A DNA stretch of 64,000 bases from Nocardia sp. BMG111209 (GTDB taxonomy: Bacteria; Actinomycetota; Actinomycetes; Mycobacteriales; Mycobacteriaceae). This document shows positions 4,747 through 47,220 of the stretch, piece after piece. How positions within the stretch are numbered: position 1 is the stretch's first letter; each line of letters opens with the position of its first letter. The position numbers and the translations under genes were made by a program. The notes beneath the pieces are model-generated. The model saw only the letters and a program-made list of their open reading frames with translations. It was not told where the DNA came from and ran no database searches. Where the stretch lies: positions 3,782,001-3,846,000 of the forward strand of contig NZ_KB907307.1 of the NCBI RefSeq assembly GCF_000381925.1, read 5' to 3'.

Positions 4747-6098
4747 CCAGCGGCATCTCCCCCGTCACCGGCGTCGACGACCGCACCGCCGAGCGGCTCG
4801 CGGCCGCGCTGCGCTGCATCACCGTCTCCCGTGACACCGGCGACCGCGACGACGCCGAATTCCACCGCCTCGGTGCGCAACTCGAGCGGGACTATCCGCT
4901 CGTGCACGCCGAGCTGACCCTCGAACGGTTCGGGCACAGCCGCCTGTACCGCTGGGACGGCGTCGAATCCGGACCGCCCGTGGCGATCCTGCTGGCCCAT
5001 CTGGACGTGGTGCCCGCCGACGACGAGCGGCTGTGGACCCATCCGCCGTTCGCCGGGGTCGTCGACGACGAATTCGTCTGGGGCCGTGGCGCCATCGACG
5101 ACAAGAGCCGGGTGCTGGCCCTCCTCGAGGCCGTGGAGGCGCTGCTCGCCGCGGGCCGGCGCCCCCGCCGCACGATCTACCTCGCCTTCGGCCACGACGA
5201 GGAGCTCAGCGGCGCCGAGGGCGCCGTCCGGATGGCCGCCCGGCTGCGCGAACTCGGCGTGCACGCCGATCTGCTGCTGGACGAGGGCGGCGTGATCACC
5301 ACCGGCCTCGCCGCCGGCGTCGAGCGGCCGGTCGGCAACATCATGATCGGCGAAAAGGGCTGGGCCACGGTGAAATTGACGGTGGTCGAACCGGGCGGAC
5401 ATTCCTCGATGCCGGGCCGGGAGACCGCGGTGGGCCGGATCGCCCGCGCGGTGGCGCGGATCCAGGACCATCCGATGCCGCTGCGGATGACCCCGGCGGT
5501 CGCCGAGATGCTGCGCCGGGCCCGCCCGGCGATGGCCGAACCGCGCCGCAGCGCGCTGCGGCTGCTACCCGTGGTCTCCCCGATCGTGACCCGCATCCTG
5601 GCGACCCGGCCGCAGACCGAGGCGATGGTCCGCACCACCGCCGCGGCGACGGTGATCCACGGCGGCGTGAAGGCCAACGTGCTGCCGCAGCGGGCCGAGG
5701 CGCTGGTGAATTTCCGTATCCTGCCCGGCGATTCGGTGGCCGCGGTGCTCGAGCACTGCCGCCGGGTGGTCCGCGACCCCGAGGTGAGCGTGGAACTCGA
5801 CGGGCCGGTGGCCGAGCCGTCGCGGATCGGCGCGCCGGGCCCGGCCTACGATCTGGTCGCCGAGGTGGCCTGTGCGGTGGTCCCCGGGATCGTGCCGACC
5901 ACCGGAATCGTGCCCGGCGCCACCGATTCCCGGCACTACGACGGCCTGGCCGGCACCCGCTGCAATTTCGCCCCGATCGTCCTCGACGAGGTCGATCTCG
6001 GCCGGATCCACGGCGCCGACGAACGCCTGTCCCGCATCGACTACGGCCGCCTGATCGAGTTCGACCACCGCCTGCTCACCCGCCTGAGCGAGCGGTGA
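4743..6098 (+). CDS. M20 family metallopeptidase (carboxypeptidase/PM20D1-like)
   Basis: 451 aa, starting inside the stop codon of the preceding hydrolase. The LAHLDVVP motif supplies the first metal histidine and the neighbouring Asp. WGRGAIDDKS supplies the bridging Asp, and GHDEELSGAEGA the catalytic Glu pair. A dimerisation domain lies at about 200-310 (GWATVKLTVVEPGGHSSMPG), and the last metal histidine is near the end in IHGADER. This order matches the two-zinc M20 hydrolases closest to PM20D1 and yeast carboxypeptidase S, which cleave peptides or N-acyl amino acids. No signal peptide is visible, so it is cytosolic while its operon partner is exported. Confidence 0.88.
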   Translation: MTSGISPVTGVDDRTAERLAAALRCITVSRDTGDRDDAEFHRLGAQLERDYPLVHAELTLERFGHSRLYRWDGVESGPPVAILLAHLDVVPADDERLWTHPPFAGVVDDEFVWGRGAIDDKSRVLALLEAVEALLAAGRRPRRTIYLAFGHDEELSGAEGAVRMAARLRELGVHADLLLDEGGVITTGLAAGVERPVGNIMIGEKGWATVKLTVVEPGGHSSMPGRETAVGRIARAVARIQDHPMPLRMTPAVAEMLRRARPAMAEPRRSALRLLPVVSPIVTRILATRPQTEAMVRTTAAATVIHGGVKANVLPQRAEALVNFRILPGDSVAAVLEHCRRVVRDPEVSVELDGPVAEPSRIGAPGPAYDLVAEVACAVVPGIVPTTGIVPGATDSRHYDGLAGTRCNFAPIVLDEVDLGRIHGADERLSRIDYGRLIEFDHRLLTRLSER

Positions 6099-9870: not shown

Positions 9871-12198
9871 GTGGCAGGGCAATTCGTACCCATTCCGGAC
9901 TGGTTCTCCTGGGAGAACCAGGACTGCGGCGTCGCCGTGGCCGATCTCGACGGCGACGGCGAACCCGACGTCGTGGTGCTGATGGTCGACGATCCGGCGG
10001 GCCAGAACACCGGCAACTACCGGATCGGCACCCGGCTCGCCGCCGACGGCACCGTATCGTCCTGGGGTCCTTGGCTTTCCGTACCGGACTGGTGGGGCTG
10101 GGAGAATCAGGGCGCGGGTATCGCGCTGGCCGACCTGTCGGGTTCCGGCCGGCTCGACATGGTGGTGTTCACCGTCGACCATCCGGCCCAGGGCAATCAC
10201 GGAAAGTACCGGATCGCACGGGATCTCGCCGCGGACGGGACGGTGACCGGCGGCTGGACGCCCTGGCTGGACATTCCCGACTGGTACGGCTGGGAGAACC
10301 AGGGCGCCGACATCTGCCTCACCGAGATCGACGGTGAGCACGTACTGGTCGTGCTGACCGTCGACAATCCGGCCGGCCAGAACTCCGGGCAGTTCCGGCT
10401 CGGCAAGGGACTCACCGCCGACGGCGCGGTGACGGAATGGACGCCGTGGCTGGCGGTTCCGGACTGGTGGGGCTGGGAGAACCAGGGCGCGGGAGTGACC
10501 GTGGCCGACCTCGACGGCGACGGCCGCCCCGAACTGATCGTCTTCACCGTGGACCATCCCGCCGACGGCAACGCCGGGCTGTACACGGTCGGCTGGGGTC
10601 TGGACGGTACCGGGCACTGCGTCGACGGCTGGAGCCGCTGGTCGCACGTGCCGGACTGGGGGTTCGCGCAGAATCAGGGCGCCGCCGTCGCGGTGCTGCC
10701 CACCGGTGCGGCGCTGCCGAGCCTGGTGGTCCTCACCATCGACAATCCGGCGGGCGGCAACGAGGGCTACCTGCGGGTGCTCGACCCGGATCTCGATGTG
10801 GCACAGGGCGCCACGCTCGGCGCGTGGCGAATCCTCGACTTCGGCACCGAGATCAATCCGGTGCACGCCGCCCTGCTGCACACCGGCGACGTGCTGTTCT
10901 ACGCGGGCTCCGGCAACGATCCGGATCGGGAGCCGACCCACGACTTCGCCACGCGCGTATGGCATTACCCGCGTCCCGGACTCGCCGCGCCACCGCTGGG
11001 CGTCGACATCTTCTGCTCCGCATCGGCTTTCCTGCCGGACGGGCGGGTGCTCGCCGCGGGCGGCACCGAACAGTACGACCCCTTCTTCGGGCTGCGCGAC
11101 GCGCTGCTGTTCGATCCCGCGACCCTGGCCTGGAACGCGGTGCCGGACATGACCTTCGGACGCTGGTACCCGAGCCTGGCGGCGCTACCGAGCGGGAAGG
11201 TGGTGGCCACCTCGGGACTCGGCACGGACGGATTCCTCGCGGAGACACCGGAACTGTTCGATCCCGCCACCGCGACCTGGTCGCAGCTGCCGGTACCCGG
11301 CCCGATCCCGATGTTCGCCCATCTGGTGCTGCTCACCGGCGGCCGGTTGTTCTACACCGGCGGCCAGTACGGCGGCAACAACGGGATGCACCCCTCGATC
11401 TGGGACACCGCCACCGGCGCGGTGACGGTGGTGGACGGCCTGGCCGATCCCGATTCGCGCAACCAGTCCACCAGCGTGCTGCTGCCACCCGCCCAGGGCC
11501 AGCGGGTGATGCTGATCGGCGGCGGCGGATACGATCCGCACCAGCCCTCACCCGCCACCGCCGACACCCACGTCGCCGACCTGAGCGCCGCCACCCCGGT
11601 GTACCGGCCGGGTCCGCCGCTGGAATTCGCGCGCATGCACGTCAGCGCGGTCGTGCTGCCGGACCGGACGGTGCTGGCGTGCGGCGGCGCGACCATGGAG
11701 GAGATGGGCACCATGGCCCCGCCCCACGCGGAACTGCTCGACCCGGCCACCGAGACCTGGAAACCGACCGCGCCGCAACGGGTTCCGCGCCTCTACCATT
11801 CGGTGGCGCTGCTGACGCCGGACGGCAAGGTGATCACCGCGGGCTCCAATCCGGCCCGCAAGACCGAGGAGACCCGGATCGAGGTGTTCTGGCCGCCCTA
11901 CCTGTTCCGGGGACCTCGGCCGGATCTACGACTCGACACCGAAACCGCCGGCTACGGCGGCACGCTCACCGCGACCACCACCGCCACCGTGCGGGACGTC
12001 AACCTCCTGCACCCCACCGCGTGCACGCATTCCTGCGACAACAGCCAACGCCTGATCGACCTGCCGTTCACCGGATCCGGCACACTCACCGTGACACTGC
12101 CGGCCGATCCGGGCCTCGCACCTCCGGGCTGGTACCAGGTGGTCGTCGTGGACACCGACGGCATTCCGTCACCCGGCCGCTGGATACACCTGGGCTGA
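9871..12198 (+). CDS. Radical-copper oxidase (galactose/glyoxal oxidase type) with five N-terminal repeats
   Basis: 775 aa from a GTG. Five imperfect repeats of about 62-65 residues start near residues 9, 72, 136, 197 and 261. Each begins PDWWGWENQG-like and continues to DLDGDGRPELIVFTVDHP, a calcium-binding FG-GAP/VCBS pattern. A Kelch beta-propeller follows and then a DUF1929-type domain. The copper-radical residues of fungal galactose oxidase all have counterparts: Cys382 (DIFCSAS), Tyr433 (GRWYPS), Tyr642-His643 (RLYHS) and His720 (CTHSCDN). The enzyme should oxidise an alcohol or aldehyde with release of H2O2. No signal peptide is visible at this start, which is odd for a family that is normally secreted. 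It converges on an SDR gene six bases away. Confidence 0.85.
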   Translation: MAGQFVPIPDWFSWENQDCGVAVADLDGDGEPDVVVLMVDDPAGQNTGNYRIGTRLAADGTVSSWGPWLSVPDWWGWENQGAGIALADLSGSGRLDMVVFTVDHPAQGNHGKYRIARDLAADGTVTGGWTPWLDIPDWYGWENQGADICLTEIDGEHVLVVLTVDNPAGQNSGQFRLGKGLTADGAVTEWTPWLAVPDWWGWENQGAGVTVADLDGDGRPELIVFTVDHPADGNAGLYTVGWGLDGTGHCVDGWSRWSHVPDWGFAQNQGAAVAVLPTGAALPSLVVLTIDNPAGGNEGYLRVLDPDLDVAQGATLGAWRILDFGTEINPVHAALLHTGDVLFYAGSGNDPDREPTHDFATRVWHYPRPGLAAPPLGVDIFCSASAFLPDGRVLAAGGTEQYDPFFGLRDALLFDPATLAWNAVPDMTFGRWYPSLAALPSGKVVATSGLGTDGFLAETPELFDPATATWSQLPVPGPIPMFAHLVLLTGGRLFYTGGQYGGNNGMHPSIWDTATGAVTVVDGLADPDSRNQSTSVLLPPAQGQRVMLIGGGGYDPHQPSPATADTHVADLSAATPVYRPGPPLEFARMHVSAVVLPDRTVLACGGATMEEMGTMAPPHAELLDPATETWKPTAPQRVPRLYHSVALLTPDGKVITAGSNPARKTEETRIEVFWPPYLFRGPRPDLRLDTETAGYGGTLTATTTATVRDVNLLHPTACTHSCDNSQRLIDLPFTGSGTLTVTLPADPGLAPPGWYQVVVVDTDGIPSPGRWIHLG

Positions 12199-15564: not shown

Positions 15565-15910
15565 GCACATCTCGTACCCGCCGAACCGGACCGCCCCACC
15601 GTCCGGTCCCAGCCTGCCGCAACCGCCGCCAGCACACTCATACCCGTCATGCCGGAACGCCGTACCCGTCCAAGTCCCGCCCACCGAGGCTGCCCCGCAC
15701 ATCTCGTACCCGTCGTACCGGAACGGCCTACCCATTCGGTACCCGCCCGCGGCACATCTTGTACCCGCGTACCGGAACGCCGCGCTCGTCCAGTCCAGCC
15801 CGCCGAGGTTGCCCGCAGTACATCTCGTACCCGTCGTACCGAACGCCCCGCCCGTCCAGTCCCGCCCGCCCGCAGAAACCGGTGGCACATCGCGCATCTC
15901 TCGTGCCAGA
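15565..15910. repeat. Degenerate minisatellite, about 66-bp unit, five to six copies
   Basis: The motif GCACATCTCGTACCCG, followed by a GTACCGGAACGCC-like block, recurs at 15565, 15632, 15697, 15752, 15818 and, degraded, near 15885. Spacings are 67, 65, 55, 66 and 67 bp. Between these blocks is a CCGTCCAGTCCCGCCCGCCG-like filler. The array fills the gap between the PEP-mutase-like gene and the epimerase gene, both on the minus strand. Readable frames cross it, but none shows a start, ribosome binding site or protein-like composition, so I regard it as non-coding. Confidence 0.8.
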
Positions 15911-15978: not shown

Positions 15979-16851
15979 TCACACACCGAAACCCGTACGC
16001 CAACTGGCGTATCGCGGCTTCCATCCGAGCGAGCGAGCGAAACCGTTGGCGGCGCCGCGCTCCCATCCGGCCCGCCCAGGTACCGGCCCCGGGGTGGGCG
16101 CACCGAAGGCTGCCGCCAACACCGGCACCCATTCCCGCCCCGGCGCGGGCTCGTCGTCGACGATGTTGACCGTGCCGGTCGGCCACTCCAGCGCCTCGAC
16201 GGTGGCCTGCGCCGCGTCCTCGACGTGCACGAAGGACGAAACCGCGTCGTTCGCCACCAGCGTGGCCATGAATCCGGCCGCCGGATCGGAGGTGTCGCCG
16301 TGCAATACCGCATCGGCCAGTCCGCCCCGCCTATACCAGGTACCCGGCCCGTACAGCAGTCCGTACCGCAACACGACATGGTGCGGCAGCTCCGCAACCG
16401 CCTCCTCGAGCGCCCGCACCCCCGCCACCGTGCGAGCCCTCGGCAGGTCCGCCTCCACATCCAGCGGAACAGCCTCGTCCGCCGGCTCCTCCCCCGGTGC
16501 ATAGGCCCACGAAATCGACTGCGCAACAATCCGTTCCACACCCGCACGACGCGCCGCATCCACCAGATGCCGAGTACCGACCTCCCGGATCCGGCTGTTC
16601 TCGGCCGGTGCGCCACCACTGAGTGCGGTCAGCTGATGAATCACCACGTCAGGCGCGGCATCGGCCACAACCCGCGCCACCGCCTCGGCATCGAAGACAT
16701 CCAGCCGCACCCCCTCGGCGCCGAGCGCCCGCACACTCTCCACCCCGGCCGCACTCCGCGAGGTACCGGTCACCACATGCCCGGCTTCGACCAGAGCCGC
16801 AACCAACGGCCGACCGATCGCCCCGGTGCCACCCGCCACGAATATCCGCAT
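15979..16851 (-). CDS. NAD-dependent epimerase/dehydratase (extended SDR)
   Basis: 290 aa from the ATG at 16851, with GAGGAG five bases upstream; two GTGs just before it are less likely. The N-terminal MRIFVAGGTGAIGRPL is the GxxGxxG dinucleotide fold of extended SDR proteins. VIHQLTAL, RIVAQSISWAY and VLRYGLLYGPG follow, the last being the usual post-catalytic segment. The canonical YxxxK is not obvious after ISWAY, so the reaction is uncertain. A short-chain sugar-nucleotide or ether/thioester reductase role cannot be separated. The MocR regulator lies divergently behind an 18-bp repeat array and may regulate it. Confidence 0.8.
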   Translation of the reverse strand: MRIFVAGGTGAIGRPLVAALVEAGHVVTGTSRSAAGVESVRALGAEGVRLDVFDAEAVARVVADAAPDVVIHQLTALSGGAPAENSRIREVGTRHLVDAARRAGVERIVAQSISWAYAPGEEPADEAVPLDVEADLPRARTVAGVRALEEAVAELPHHVVLRYGLLYGPGTWYRRGGLADAVLHGDTSDPAAGFMATLVANDAVSSFVHVEDAAQATVEALEWPTGTVNIVDDEPAPGREWVPVLAAAFGAPTPGPVPGRAGWERGAANGFARSLGWKPRYASWRTGFGV

Positions 16852-17122
16852 CACCACTCCTCACCCACGAATGTCGTTGCCGCCCTGAGCTTCCGCCCCG
16901 GCAAACGGCCGCCCGCACCGAACGCGCCCGACCGTCTGCTGCTCACGCTACCCACCCAGTAGCCCAACCGAATGAGCCACTCGAGGCAGAATAAATTGGA
17001 CCACTGACACTGACCACCAGGCGACAGGGCACCGGCACCCGCTCGATCGCCCCAGACCACGCTCCACAAGGCAACACCGAACCATGCCACCTCCGCGAAA
17101 AACGGCACGCCGCACCACCGCC

Positions 17123-17914
17123 GATCGACCGACCACCCCCGCGAATCCGGCCATCACCAGACATCCGACCAGCACCACGAATCCGGCCGCCGTCGACCGG
17201 CCTACCACGGATGAACCTCCGACCACTGCTGCGAATCCGGCGGCCGCCGAACATCCGGCCGATGCCATTCGTCAGACCATCACCGGATATCCGACCAACA
17301 GGGATCATCCAACCACCGCCGATCATTCGGCCACCTCGGATCATCCGACCAACACCGATCGTCCGACCAACGCGAATCATTCGGCCACCTCCGGTCACCC
17401 GACCAACGCGAATCATTCAGCCACCGCGGATCGTTCGGCCGTCGCCATTCGTCAGACCACCCCCGATCGACCGACCACCCCCGCGAATCCGGCCATCACC
17501 AGACATCCGACCAGCACCACGAATCCGGCCGCCGTCGACCGGCCTACCGCGACCGAACATCCGACCGCTGTTGCGAATCCGGCGGCGGCCGAACATCCGA
17601 CCAACGCCGACCGGCCGACCATCACCGGACATCCGACCAACAGGGATCATCCAACCACCGCCGATCCTTCGGCCACCTCCGGTCACCCGACCGACGCGAA
17701 TCGTTCGGCCACCGCCATTCGCCAGACCACCGCCGATCGGCCTACCACGGACGAACATCCGACCACTGCTGCGAATCTGGCCGCCGCCGAACATCCGGCC
17801 GATGCCATTCGTCAGACCATCACCGGACATCCGACCAACGCGGGTCATCCGACCTCTGGGGATCGTCCGACCGCCACCGATTATCCCGCCACAGCGGCGA
17901 ATCCGCCCGCCACA
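17123..17914 (+). repeat. 44 x 18-bp tandem repeat array upstream of, and in frame with, the MocR gene
   Basis: From 17123 to 17914 the sequence divides into exactly 44 units of 18 bp with no insertion or deletion. A typical unit is GATCATCCGACCAACACC. In the MocR frame each unit reads as a hexapeptide of the form [DEGN]-[HR]-P-T-[TNA]-[AT], for example DHPTNT, DRPTTP or EHPADA. Larger duplications are visible: units 1-4 recur almost exactly as units 20-23 (342 bp apart), and units 5-9 recur as 35-39 (540 bp apart). Codons here often end in T (GAT, CAT, AAT), unlike the flanking genes. Other frames stay open as well, so openness alone does not prove translation. Confidence 0.92.
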
Positions 17915-17932
17915 CGCGGTACGGCCGGGCGG

Positions 17933-19333
17933 ATGCCGACGGGTGCCGAATTGCTGCTCGAACTTCGCGCCGACGGCACTCGGCGGCATGCGCTGGAGGA
18001 AGCCTTCCGGACCGCCATCCGTGACGGGCGGCTGGCGGCCGGGACCGCTCTGCCGTCCAGCCGGGACCTCGCCACTCAACTCGGGCTGTCGCGTGGCACG
18101 GTCACCACGGTCTATGAGCAGCTGGCGGCCGAGGGGTGGTTGAGCGCGCGGCAGGGCGCGGGTACCCGGGTGGCCGACGGTGCCGTCGAATCGGGACCCG
18201 GCATCGCGGCGCCCGCGCGACCGGAGGCGCGGTATCGCTTCGATCTGCGTCCGGGCCGGCCGGATGTCGGGGGGTTCCCTCGCAATGACTGGGCACGGGC
18301 GATGCGTACCGTGCTGCGCGACGCGCCGGACGAGGCCTTCGGATTCGGGGATCCGCGCGGGCGGCCGGAGCTGCGGGCCACACTGGCTGCCTATCTGGGG
18401 CGGGTGCGCGGGGTTCGGGTCGATCCCGCGCATCTGGTGATCTGTTCCGGGTACACCCAGGCGCTGGGTCTGCTCGCCGAGGTGTTCGCGGAGTCGGGTA
18501 TCGGGGCGGTCGGGATGGAGGATCCGTCGATCGGCGATCATGTCCGGTTGGTCGCGGGCCGGGTGCCTCTTGTCGATATTCCGGTGGACGACAACGGGAT
18601 TCGGGTGGACGCGCTGGCCGCCACGGGCGTCGGTGCGGCGGTCTGTACCCCTGCGCACCAGTTCCCGACGGGAGTGGCCATGACCGCGGACCGCCGGACC
18701 GCTCTGCTGGACTGGGCCGACGGATGCAACGGCTGGATCGTCGAGGACGATTACGACGGGGAGTTCCGCTACGACCGGCACCCCACCGCCGCACTGCAAT
18801 CGCGCCGCCCGGCGCGGGTGGTGTACGCGGGCTCGACCAGCAAGACCATCGGCCCGGCCGTGCGGCTGGGCTGGATCGCCTGTCCGCCCGCGCTGCTGGA
18901 ACCCCTGCTGGCCGCCAAACGCCGGACCCACGACTGGCGTCATCTGGATCAGCTCGCCCTGGCCCGCCTCATCGATACCGGCGGCTACGACCGGCACCTG
19001 CGGACCGTGCGGCGCGCCTATCGCCGCCGCCGTGATCTGTTCACCGCCGCGATCCGAAACGACCTGCCGCACAGTGTGATCCGCGGCCTGGAGGCGGGGC
19101 TGCACGCGGTCCTCGAGCTCCCGCCCGGGGTGACCGAGGCGGCGGCCGTCACCGCACTGGCCGCGGCCGCCGTGACCACGTTCCCCCTGGCCGAGCTGCT
19201 CCGCACCGATCGTGACCACTATCCGCCCTCCCTCGTCATCGGTTACGCCACCCCGGCGGCGCGGGACTACCCCGCTGCCCTCGGCGCCCTCACCCGTGCG
19301 CTCGCCGGACTCGGCCCGTCTCCTGCCACCTGA
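17933..19333 (+). CDS. MocR-type (GntR-HTH/aminotransferase) transcriptional regulator
   Basis: 466 aa if started at the ATG at 17933, which gives a normal MocR protein. A winged helix (LPSSRDLATQLGLSRGTVTT) covers residues about 10-80. A type I aminotransferase fold follows, with SGYTQALGLL, DDYDGEFRY and the PLP lysine in AGSTSKTIGPAVRLGW. MocR proteins bind PLP and often control vitamin B6, GABA or amino-acid genes, usually a divergent neighbour, here the epimerase. Neither this ATG nor the one at 17084 has a good ribosome binding site. Starting at 17084 would add 283 residues, mostly the hexapeptide repeats, and no known MocR has such a leader. Confidence 0.86.
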   Translation: MPTGAELLLELRADGTRRHALEEAFRTAIRDGRLAAGTALPSSRDLATQLGLSRGTVTTVYEQLAAEGWLSARQGAGTRVADGAVESGPGIAAPARPEARYRFDLRPGRPDVGGFPRNDWARAMRTVLRDAPDEAFGFGDPRGRPELRATLAAYLGRVRGVRVDPAHLVICSGYTQALGLLAEVFAESGIGAVGMEDPSIGDHVRLVAGRVPLVDIPVDDNGIRVDALAATGVGAAVCTPAHQFPTGVAMTADRRTALLDWADGCNGWIVEDDYDGEFRYDRHPTAALQSRRPARVVYAGSTSKTIGPAVRLGWIACPPALLEPLLAAKRRTHDWRHLDQLALARLIDTGGYDRHLRTVRRAYRRRRDLFTAAIRNDLPHSVIRGLEAGLHAVLELPPGVTEAAAVTALAAAAVTTFPLAELLRTDRDHYPPSLVIGYATPAARDYPAALGALTRALAGLGPSPAT

Positions 19334-19404
19334 ATCTTTGCGTTCACGAACTCCGTTGGGACACAGTCGTACCGGCAGAATGCGGCCGGGGACCCGCTGC
19401 GCGG

Positions 19405-19815
19405 TCAGGTACCGTTGCGTCTCCGGGACATCGCGGAGCCGCCGGTCGGCGTCGCATCCGCGGATTCGGTTGCGGGAGTGGCCGCTTCGGACCCGCCGGT
19501 GCGGCCCGGTGGACGGCCGCGCCGGGCCGACGCCTGCCGCACGGCACGCAACCGCTCCAGTACGACTTCCGGATCGTCGCCGACATCGATGTCGACCGCG
19601 GAGGCCGCGAGCGCCTCGTACTGCTGCCGCCGCCGGGCCTCCCGATACCGGAGCACATCGTCGAGACGTAAACGGTGGAAACGCTTTCCGACCAGTTCGG
19701 CCGGCAGCTCCCCCTTCTCGATCCAGCGTTTGACCGTCGGCCGGCTCACCCCGAGCAGGTCGGCGGCCTGCTGGGAGGTCAGCGCCACGGCAGGCCGGGA
19801 CAGCGAGTCGCCCAT
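19405..19815 (-). CDS. Excisionase/MerR-like helix-turn-helix DNA-binding protein
   Basis: 136 aa from the ATG at 19815, with AGAGG seven bases upstream. ALTSQQAADLLGVSRPTVKRWIEKGELP is the winged-helix of the excisionase family at residues about 11-40, followed by GKRFHRLRLDDVLRY. The C-terminal half is charged, then Pro/Thr/Ser-rich and probably disordered. In actinobacteria such proteins are often antitoxins next to a PIN-domain toxin. No toxin gene is adjacent here: downstream is the convergent MocR gene. It may be a lone regulator or an orphaned antitoxin. Confidence 0.75.
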   Translation of the reverse strand: MGDSLSRPAVALTSQQAADLLGVSRPTVKRWIEKGELPAELVGKRFHRLRLDDVLRYREARRRQQYEALAASAVDIDVGDDPEVVLERLRAVRQASARRGRPPGRTGGSEAATPATESADATPTGGSAMSRRRNGT

Positions 19816-42019: not shown

Positions 42020-42355
42020 CCCGCATCCGGGCCGGACGCCACAGCCGTCACAATCCGGATCGGGACCCGGACACCAGAACCGGCACGTTCCGGATCAGTC
42101 CCGATCACCACCACCGTCGCGATCCGGATCAGGGCCGGATGCCACGACCGTCGCGATCCGGATCACGGCCGGACACCACAACCGGCACAATCCGGATCAC
42201 GGCCGGACACCACAACCATCACGATCAGAGCCGGACACCATAACCGTCACAATCGGGATCCGGACTCGGACATCACAATCGGGATCCGCGCCGAACGCCA
42301 CGACCGGGATCCGGGCCGAACGCTACGACCGTCACGATCCGTGGTGCTCCGGACA
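42020..42355. repeat. Minisatellite, about 34-bp unit, around ten copies
   Basis: GGCCGGACACCACAACC followed by a GTCACAATCCGGATCA-type block repeats with a 34-bp period. CCGGA anchors are at 42032, 42067, 42135, 42169 and 42203, then 42231 after a shortened unit; further copies decay towards 42355. Each unit contains the self-complementary ATCCGGAT. The array lies in the 517-bp gap between the cobC stop and the NIF3 start, both on the minus strand, so a transcript crossing the gap would include it. No coding frame with a plausible start is seen. Confidence 0.85.
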
Positions 42356-45035: not shown

Positions 45036-45300
45036 CCCGCCGGGCCGCTGCGCGGGGTGCACCGTGCGCCGGGCCGCTGTACAGGTATGCCGTCCGCCAG
45101 GCCGCTGTGCGGGTACGCCCGCCGGCCGCTGCGCGGGGTACGGCCGTCCGCCGGACCGCAGTGGTACGCGCCCGCCGGGCCGCTGTGCGGGGTAGCCACA
45201 GTGCGGGTACGCCGCCCGCTGAGCCGCTTCGCGGGGTGCGCCGTCAGACCCGGTCACAGGTGGGTGCGCCGCCCGCTGGGCCGCCGTGCGGGCACGCCGT
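45036..45300. repeat. Minisatellite, 24-30-bp unit, about eight copies
   Basis: Copies of GCCGGGCCGCTGTGCGGG with a following TACGCCGTC-like block recur. CCGCTG cores are at 45045, 45074, 45102, 45126, 45156 (degenerate), 45180, 45224 and 45281, so spacing is 24-30 bp in the first six and wider at the end. The array fills most of the 495-bp gap between SURF1 and the antiporter. Frames crossing it on both strands are Arg/Ala/Pro low-complexity and look non-coding. Confidence 0.75.
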
Positions 45301-47029: not shown

Positions 47030-47220
47030 AGCGCAGCGGTCCCGCCTTTGCCCTCTACAAGCACAGCGGTCCGGCCGCCGCACAGGCACCTGCCCAGCGC
47101 AAGCACGGCGGTCCGGCAGCAACGCAGCATCTGCCCGGCACAAGCACTGCGGTCCGGCGGCCCACATCACCTGGCGGCGCAAGCACAGCGGTCCGGCGGG
47201 AAGCGCAGCATCTGCCCACG
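47030..47220. repeat. Minisatellite, about 40-bp unit, four to five copies
   Basis: CAAGCACAGCGGTCCGGC-type blocks start at 47058, 47100, 47141 and 47180 (spacings 42, 41, 39), with a degenerate one near 47032. Alternate units carry a GCAGCATCTGCCC block. The array fills the 235-bp gap between the convergent antiporter and cobD genes, where a terminator would be expected. Confidence 0.8.

Follow-up and report, generated by a model that had tools for sequence, protein, structure and literature searches.

In proteins of the MocR subfamily the N-terminal domain is described as comprising some 60 residues, and the interdomain linkers include variable low-complexity tracts, with lengths of up to 162 residues listed (PMC5026710). 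In NanR, an E. coli GntR protein of another subfamily, a mostly disordered N-terminal extension of 32 residues is needed for cooperative binding (PMC8012715). Literature searches, with subscription journals mostly outside their coverage, matched only NanR for MocR linkers and N-terminal extensions, and for Nocardia tandem repeats and disordered minisatellites returned nothing on a MocR-array locus. Here we describe a repeat array ahead of a PdxR-like MocR regulator of Nocardia sp. BMG111209, and propose that the array probably forms most of a translated, disordered N-terminal tail whose reading frame is kept while its sequence is free.

The window analysed is a stretch of 64,000 nucleotides of the BMG111209 genome. 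Within it, the regulator core occupies 17933..19333 on the + strand (466 aa from the inner ATG) and matches, above cut-off, the GntR winged helix-turn-helix (PF00392) followed by the fold-type-I aminotransferase-like domain (PF00155), which is the domain order of the MocR subfamily. Its score of 371 bits against NCBIfam NF052282 (PdxR) passes the curated cut-off of 320, and its dN/dS against the Nocardia aurantia ortholog is 0.17. PdxR regulators characteristically govern vitamin B6 genes and are responsive to PLP; the genes next to this one are an epimerase-like and a methylisocitrate-lyase-like gene. The epimerase/dehydratase-like gene (15979..16857, minus strand; PF01370) is divergent, shares the intergenic operator region and is not a recognised vitamin B6 gene, and the same divergent neighbour is present at the loci of the two nearest relatives.

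The array, at 17123..17914 (+ strand), spans 792 bp and divides in a fixed register into 44 units, each exactly 18 bp long, as the first-pass annotation had it; it is in frame with an ORF at 17084-19333 (749 aa). The array is real and goes beyond chance. Its self-identity is 0.594 at lag 18 and rises to 0.744 at lag 342 and 0.738 at lag 540, bearing out the larger internal duplications claimed earlier, while the background lags listed between 3 and 39 (multiples of 18 left aside) give 0.144-0.377. TRF reported a period of 18 with 32.4 copies, 61% matches and 0% indels over 17303-17886, and two shorter rows with 1% (17275-17416) and 9% indels (17129-17185); the fixed 18-bp register does not need the indels of these two rows. 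The count does depend on the gap penalty. At the standard penalty with refined units a single 3-base gap is placed, whereas at a cheaper one (open -5 or -4) the aligner puts in 18-22, most of which we take as compensating pairs since the total stays at 44 x 18. If translated, the units would encode hexapeptides of the approximate form D/E/G/A-H/R/N-P-T/A-x-x in a disordered tail. The third residue is P in 33 of 44 units and the fourth is T or A in 43 of 44; the motif given earlier, [DEGN]-[HR]-P-T, is matched strictly by 19 of 44 units. A weak 67-bp DNA match to the array elsewhere in the genome was taken as chance, as were the 26-73 bp matches seen when 149 other genomes of the genus were compared (three candidates scored in each), of which 24 had such a match.

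Upstream of the array is a putative three-box MocR operator at 16960..17003 (+ strand), within an island conserved in three species. Its boxes are TAGCCCA (16960-16966), TGAGCCA (16973-16979) and TGGACCA (16997-17003), the third inverted, with start-to-start spacings of 13 and 24. The island takes the forms TAGTCCA or TGGTCCA, TGGTCCA or TGATCCA, and TGGACCA, and by sequence match it has the repeated boxes near the regulator gene, often two direct and one inverted, that mark MocR operators. It was the best match to this geometry on either strand of the window, with two mismatches (one each in boxes 1 and 2) against four for the next best; N. aurantia has one mismatch, and both the third species (alder85J, locus L132) and locus L096 from another genus have none. 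A candidate -10 hexamer, TAAATT at 16992..16997 (+ strand), overlaps box 3 and is a guess made by eye; N. aurantia has TAAAGT at this place. Among 51 loci scanned for half-sites upstream of the core, three were the BMG111209, N. aurantia and alder85J loci, and 12 of the other 48 carried an exact half-site no more than about 105 bases from the core. Three distant PdxR-like genes (L096, L099 and L101) lack an insert: a box directly adjoins their start codon, and no more than about ten codons separate that codon from the core. The arrangement lacking a tail thus looks the older one, with the tail as an apparent insertion directly after the start codon.

A core match at E <= 1e-90 was found in 20 of 150 genomes of the genus, the genome itself included. 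Outside it, only N. aurantia RB56 (L001, 85%; L131 in this search is the same gene) and alder85J (L132, 81%) exceed 80% identity, the rest being at 49% or below; the Nocardia database proteins P0004, P0005 and P0016 are 66-71% identical to the core, with P0004 and P0005, the next relatives, at 66-69%. In both relatives the regulator ORF (L001 4599-6398 in N. aurantia; L132 1498-3294, minus strand, in alder85J) is open from an operator-side ATG into the core, over 139 and 141 codons, respectively. The two segments lie between the conserved operator and the helix-turn-helix, are rich in P, T, A, N and R, and begin with MSYPNGH and MLYPNND, their homologous start codons lying directly behind the island. 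The corresponding site in BMG111209, at 17009..17011 (+ strand), reads ACT in the MocR frame, and by the alignment and the list of in-frame starts this start has been lost. Counted from there, the BMG111209 tail has 308 codons. The place of the tail is taken in N. aurantia by an array of 57-bp units and in alder85J by a P-rich segment, and no similarity beyond shuffled controls was detected among the three tails (best scores 13.5-15.0, shuffle maxima 15.5-17.0), with the cores diverged by dN 0.09-0.12 and dS 0.54-0.56. Among the 7995 candidates sharing most words that were scored, no protein homolog was found for the BMG111209 tail at E 1e-5 or for the N. aurantia tail at 1e-3. Disorder-promoting residues make up 94, 96 and 88% of the three tails. 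An AlphaFold model of the BMG111209 protein gave pLDDT below 50 for residues 10-131 and 139-288 (mostly 31-52 over the tail), neither helix nor strand ahead of residue 300, and a pLDDT of 68 or more in nearly all blocks of the core. Judged from this model the tail looks disordered and not like a folded domain. The Pro/Thr N-terminal domain envisaged in the first-pass annotation therefore survives in part: a coded extension is better supported by the indels described below and by both orthologs, but as a disordered tail rather than a domain. Low-complexity sequence also occurs elsewhere in the family, and P0012 and P0016 (Nocardia sp. NPDC020380) have long T/A/G-rich linkers between the winged helix and the aminotransferase domain, which suggests that tracts of this kind expand wherever this protein tolerates them.

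An open frame is by itself weak proof of coding here. A second forward frame of the array is also stop-free, the MocR frame stays stop-free in 44% of trials in which unit columns are shuffled among units, and a first-order Markov model of the 308-codon stretch leaves it open in 14%. For all three species jointly, the chance of openness is 0.14 x 0.33 x 0.30 = 0.014 under their own Markov models and 0.088 x 0.148 x 0.145, or about 0.002, when taken from intergenic frames of BMG111209.

More can be learned from indels. The first-pass annotation had argued that a length in strict multiples of three points to translation, and this became informative when other arrays in the genome were used to calibrate it. 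The calibration covered 2.464 Mb (the window and 120 stretches, all of contig 1) and used a simple gene caller and TRF; it found 78 arrays, with 45 in called genes (the BMG111209 array included), 31 between genes and 2 partial. Since TRF consensus units inflated the counts through consensus errors, the final counts use refined repeat units. They exclude the array under study and those with units shorter than 10 bp, namely L228:14600 and one genic array; one ambiguous array (L181:12245) was omitted from the sorted counts and kept in the period-based count. Non-genic arrays whose period is not a multiple of three (n=19) carry 59 frame-breaking indels per 355 mismatches, genic arrays (n=43) 18 per 1656, and non-genic arrays with a triplet period (n=13) 11 per 485. 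The BMG111209 array has 0 per 208 and the N. aurantia tail array 0 per 65, as against 12 per 66 for a control array just behind the N. aurantia MocR gene. Under a gamma-Poisson model, the probability of 0 per 208 is 9e-5 at the non-triplet rate, 0.57 at the genic, 0.34 at the non-genic triplet and 0.09 at the rate of all 32 non-genic arrays; for 0 per 65 these values are 0.005, 0.69, 0.47 and 0.19. The pooled figure of 0.09 is too lenient because several of the non-genic triplet arrays are disordered coding segments missed by the gene caller, a sorting done by eye. As the eight non-genic arrays sorted by hand as coding were chosen partly for their lack of indels, which biases that count, the period-based figure is the main one. 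The first-pass annotation had also proposed looking in relatives for arrays that break the MocR frame; this check was run on two species rather than strains, and neither breaks it.

The codons tell a different story. Variation in the unit columns of the array is spread evenly among the codon positions (77/67/66, p 0.59), and dN/dS between the internal duplicates in the MocR frame is 1.0 (lag 342) and 0.85 (lag 540), compared with 0.56 and 0.61 in the next frame; the substitutions are thus not shaped by codons. In seven hand-checked coding arrays, five were skewed at p < 0.05 (17/5/70, 3/3/10, 21/7/19, 52/26/65 and 11/25/37) and two were not (29/26/33 and 8/3/8), the genic rows being left out, their frame assignment being doubtful for minus-strand and cut genes. 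The N. aurantia array gave 22/11/25 (p 0.06). In the BMG111209 array the MocR frame has a codon score of 0.013 per codon; this exceeds the 97.5th percentile of intergenic frames (-0.016) and is below the 2.5th percentile of genes (0.088), so that it favours this frame only mildly, and in the N. aurantia and alder85J tails a reverse frame outscores the MocR frame. The earlier remark that codon usage argues against long-term coding is partly right, in that the residues evolve without visible constraint, but the frame has been kept with no frame-breaking indel. A frame-bound tail with nearly free residues fits the missing indels and the flat codon positions alike.

After 17009 the only in-frame ATGs are those at 17084 and 17933, with no GTG or TTG between them. 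From the first, the protein would have a mass of about 79 kDa (64 kDa for the extended form in N. aurantia), and a protein lacking the tail about 50 kDa. The ATG at 17084, followed by the 13 codons (17084..17122, + strand) that precede the array, is the proposed start of the long protein; its best ribosome-site word is a weak AAGG 12 bases upstream, and no good ribosome site was found upstream of ATG 17933. The gene caller chose 17084 in BMG111209 and the short start at 5016 in N. aurantia. It is somewhat unlikely that the array is an untranslated 5' leader, in which the old operator-promoter would be followed by about 930 bases of C-rich repeat and MocR would be made from ATG 17933 at the usual family length of 466 aa; the relatives may still translate theirs, the loss of the ATG at 17009 having cut off the tail in BMG111209. 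That lost start and the flat codon positions with dN/dS near 1 fit such a leader, ATG 17933 is at the position where relatives such as P0004 and P0006 begin, and the predicted database protein for the BMG111209 regulator (P0001) has 466 aa. The missing indels do not fit, since 44 diverged units would hardly stay without a frame-breaking indel unless the loss were very recent, and a very recent loss should have left traces of the earlier codon pattern; the lack of a good ribosome site before 17933 also speaks against it. The RNA of this leader gave a structure z-score of -1.67, with 1 of 20 shuffles as good. The database proteins of the relatives, P0002 (N. aurantia) and P0003 (alder85J), begin at an inner TTG and GTG, respectively, and leave the extension out.

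It is very unlikely that both starts are used, 17084 giving a long form and 17933 a short one, so that the tail would be an extension made in part or under regulation. Exactly two in-frame ATGs, neither with a strong ribosome site, would agree with this reading; against it, the inner ATG has no counterpart in N. aurantia, whose ORF contains no inner start other than GTG 4848 and TTG 5016. The multi-site binding platform raised in the first-pass annotation, non-coding and bound by MocR or another protein, draws on the regular spacing and the place between divergent genes; it is now extremely unlikely. No TGGACCA or TGGTCCA was found in the array at up to one mismatch (the closest words have two), so that the units hold no MocR half-site, and the likely operator is upstream at 16960-17003. 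The array is also not conserved in the nearest relatives, while the operator and the regulator are, and a unit of 18 bp does not make up an integral number of turns of the B-DNA helix.

We therefore return to the translated, frame-kept tail as the probable explanation. The ancestral layout would have been an operator, a start codon, about ten codons and the winged helix. An insert would then have been gained just behind the start codon and would grow and turn over in frame by minisatellite slippage or unequal exchange. We propose that frame-breaking changes are purged because ribosomes read through the tail, and that its residues are nearly free because it is disordered, which would explain why each species has a different tail, of 139-308 codons. 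Translation of the tail, its start at ATG 17084 in BMG111209 and this order of events are what we infer, as is the disorder, which is predicted. The effect of the tail is most likely mild or none, at a guess. Its bulk, next to the DNA-binding domain, might for example modulate autoregulation or the binding of the operator. By analogy with NanR, whose disordered extension is needed for cooperative binding, the tail could change how the regulator assembles on its three boxes, and it is just as conceivable that it is baggage which the protein tolerates. We regard as unlikely the further idea of evolvable tuning, in which selection would keep an unstructured tail, not its sequence, between the start at an autoregulatory operator and the winged helix, and slippage, altering the length by six residues at a time, would let the strength of the repressor vary from strain to strain in a heritable and reversible way. 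Provided that the tail is made, this regulator would combine a conserved folded core with a stretch beside its DNA-binding domain that is swapped between close species. For GC-rich genomes a usable rule would follow, namely that a degenerate array which has kept its frame is probably translated, even when gene callers and codon statistics are of no help.

Several other arrays and frames were seen. The window holds four more degenerate intergenic arrays (15565-15867, 42021-42331, 45037-45191 and 47057-47217, with periods of about 65, 34, 28 and 41), all with frame-breaking indels, and the first of these seems absent from the corresponding N. aurantia spacer. The array directly behind the N. aurantia MocR gene (L001 6369-6844) has a unit of about 41-43 bp (84 bp as a pair); TRF listed no counterpart behind the BMG111209 gene (window 19334-19405). 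Elsewhere, L116 1070-19999 (+ strand) is an open frame of more than 6300 codons that runs off the stretch and contains several triplet arrays, and its first 4000 residues begin with a match to a WXG100-like domain and have matches to SecA-like domains mid-way. L183 7826-10225 (minus strand) is a frame of 799 aa in which a membrane stretch accompanies a repeat of 11 residues (SPEAVPAQEYA-like); it adjoins the gene at 10225-11613, and the gene caller missed the repeat part. Outside called genes, L228 14600-14846 has about 31 copies of an 8-bp unit with zero mismatches and is a candidate for fast copy-number change.

Set against the MocR proteins described in PMC5026710, the regulator differs in the low-complexity stretch of 139-308 codons ahead of its winged helix; the linkers of that family also carry low-complexity tracts, but these lie between the domains whereas the tail lies before the first. 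It also differs from PF00392 and PF00155 regulators in that its divergent neighbour is epimerase-like and not a recognised vitamin B6 gene. Like NanR (PMC8012715), it would have extra disordered residues, here predicted, before a GntR winged helix, together with a three-box operator; unlike the 32 non-repetitive residues of NanR, its tail is much longer, repetitive and variable between species. There is also a likeness to minisatellites that lie in frame within disordered segments of bacterial proteins, further examples of which occur in the BMG111209 genome (L161, L183, L207, L213 and L230). The array shares with these a low-complexity product, a triplet period (18 bp, and 57 bp in N. aurantia) and no frame-breaking indels at the gap penalty used, and is set apart from them by its position between an operator and a DNA-binding domain and by the absence of codon-level constraint.
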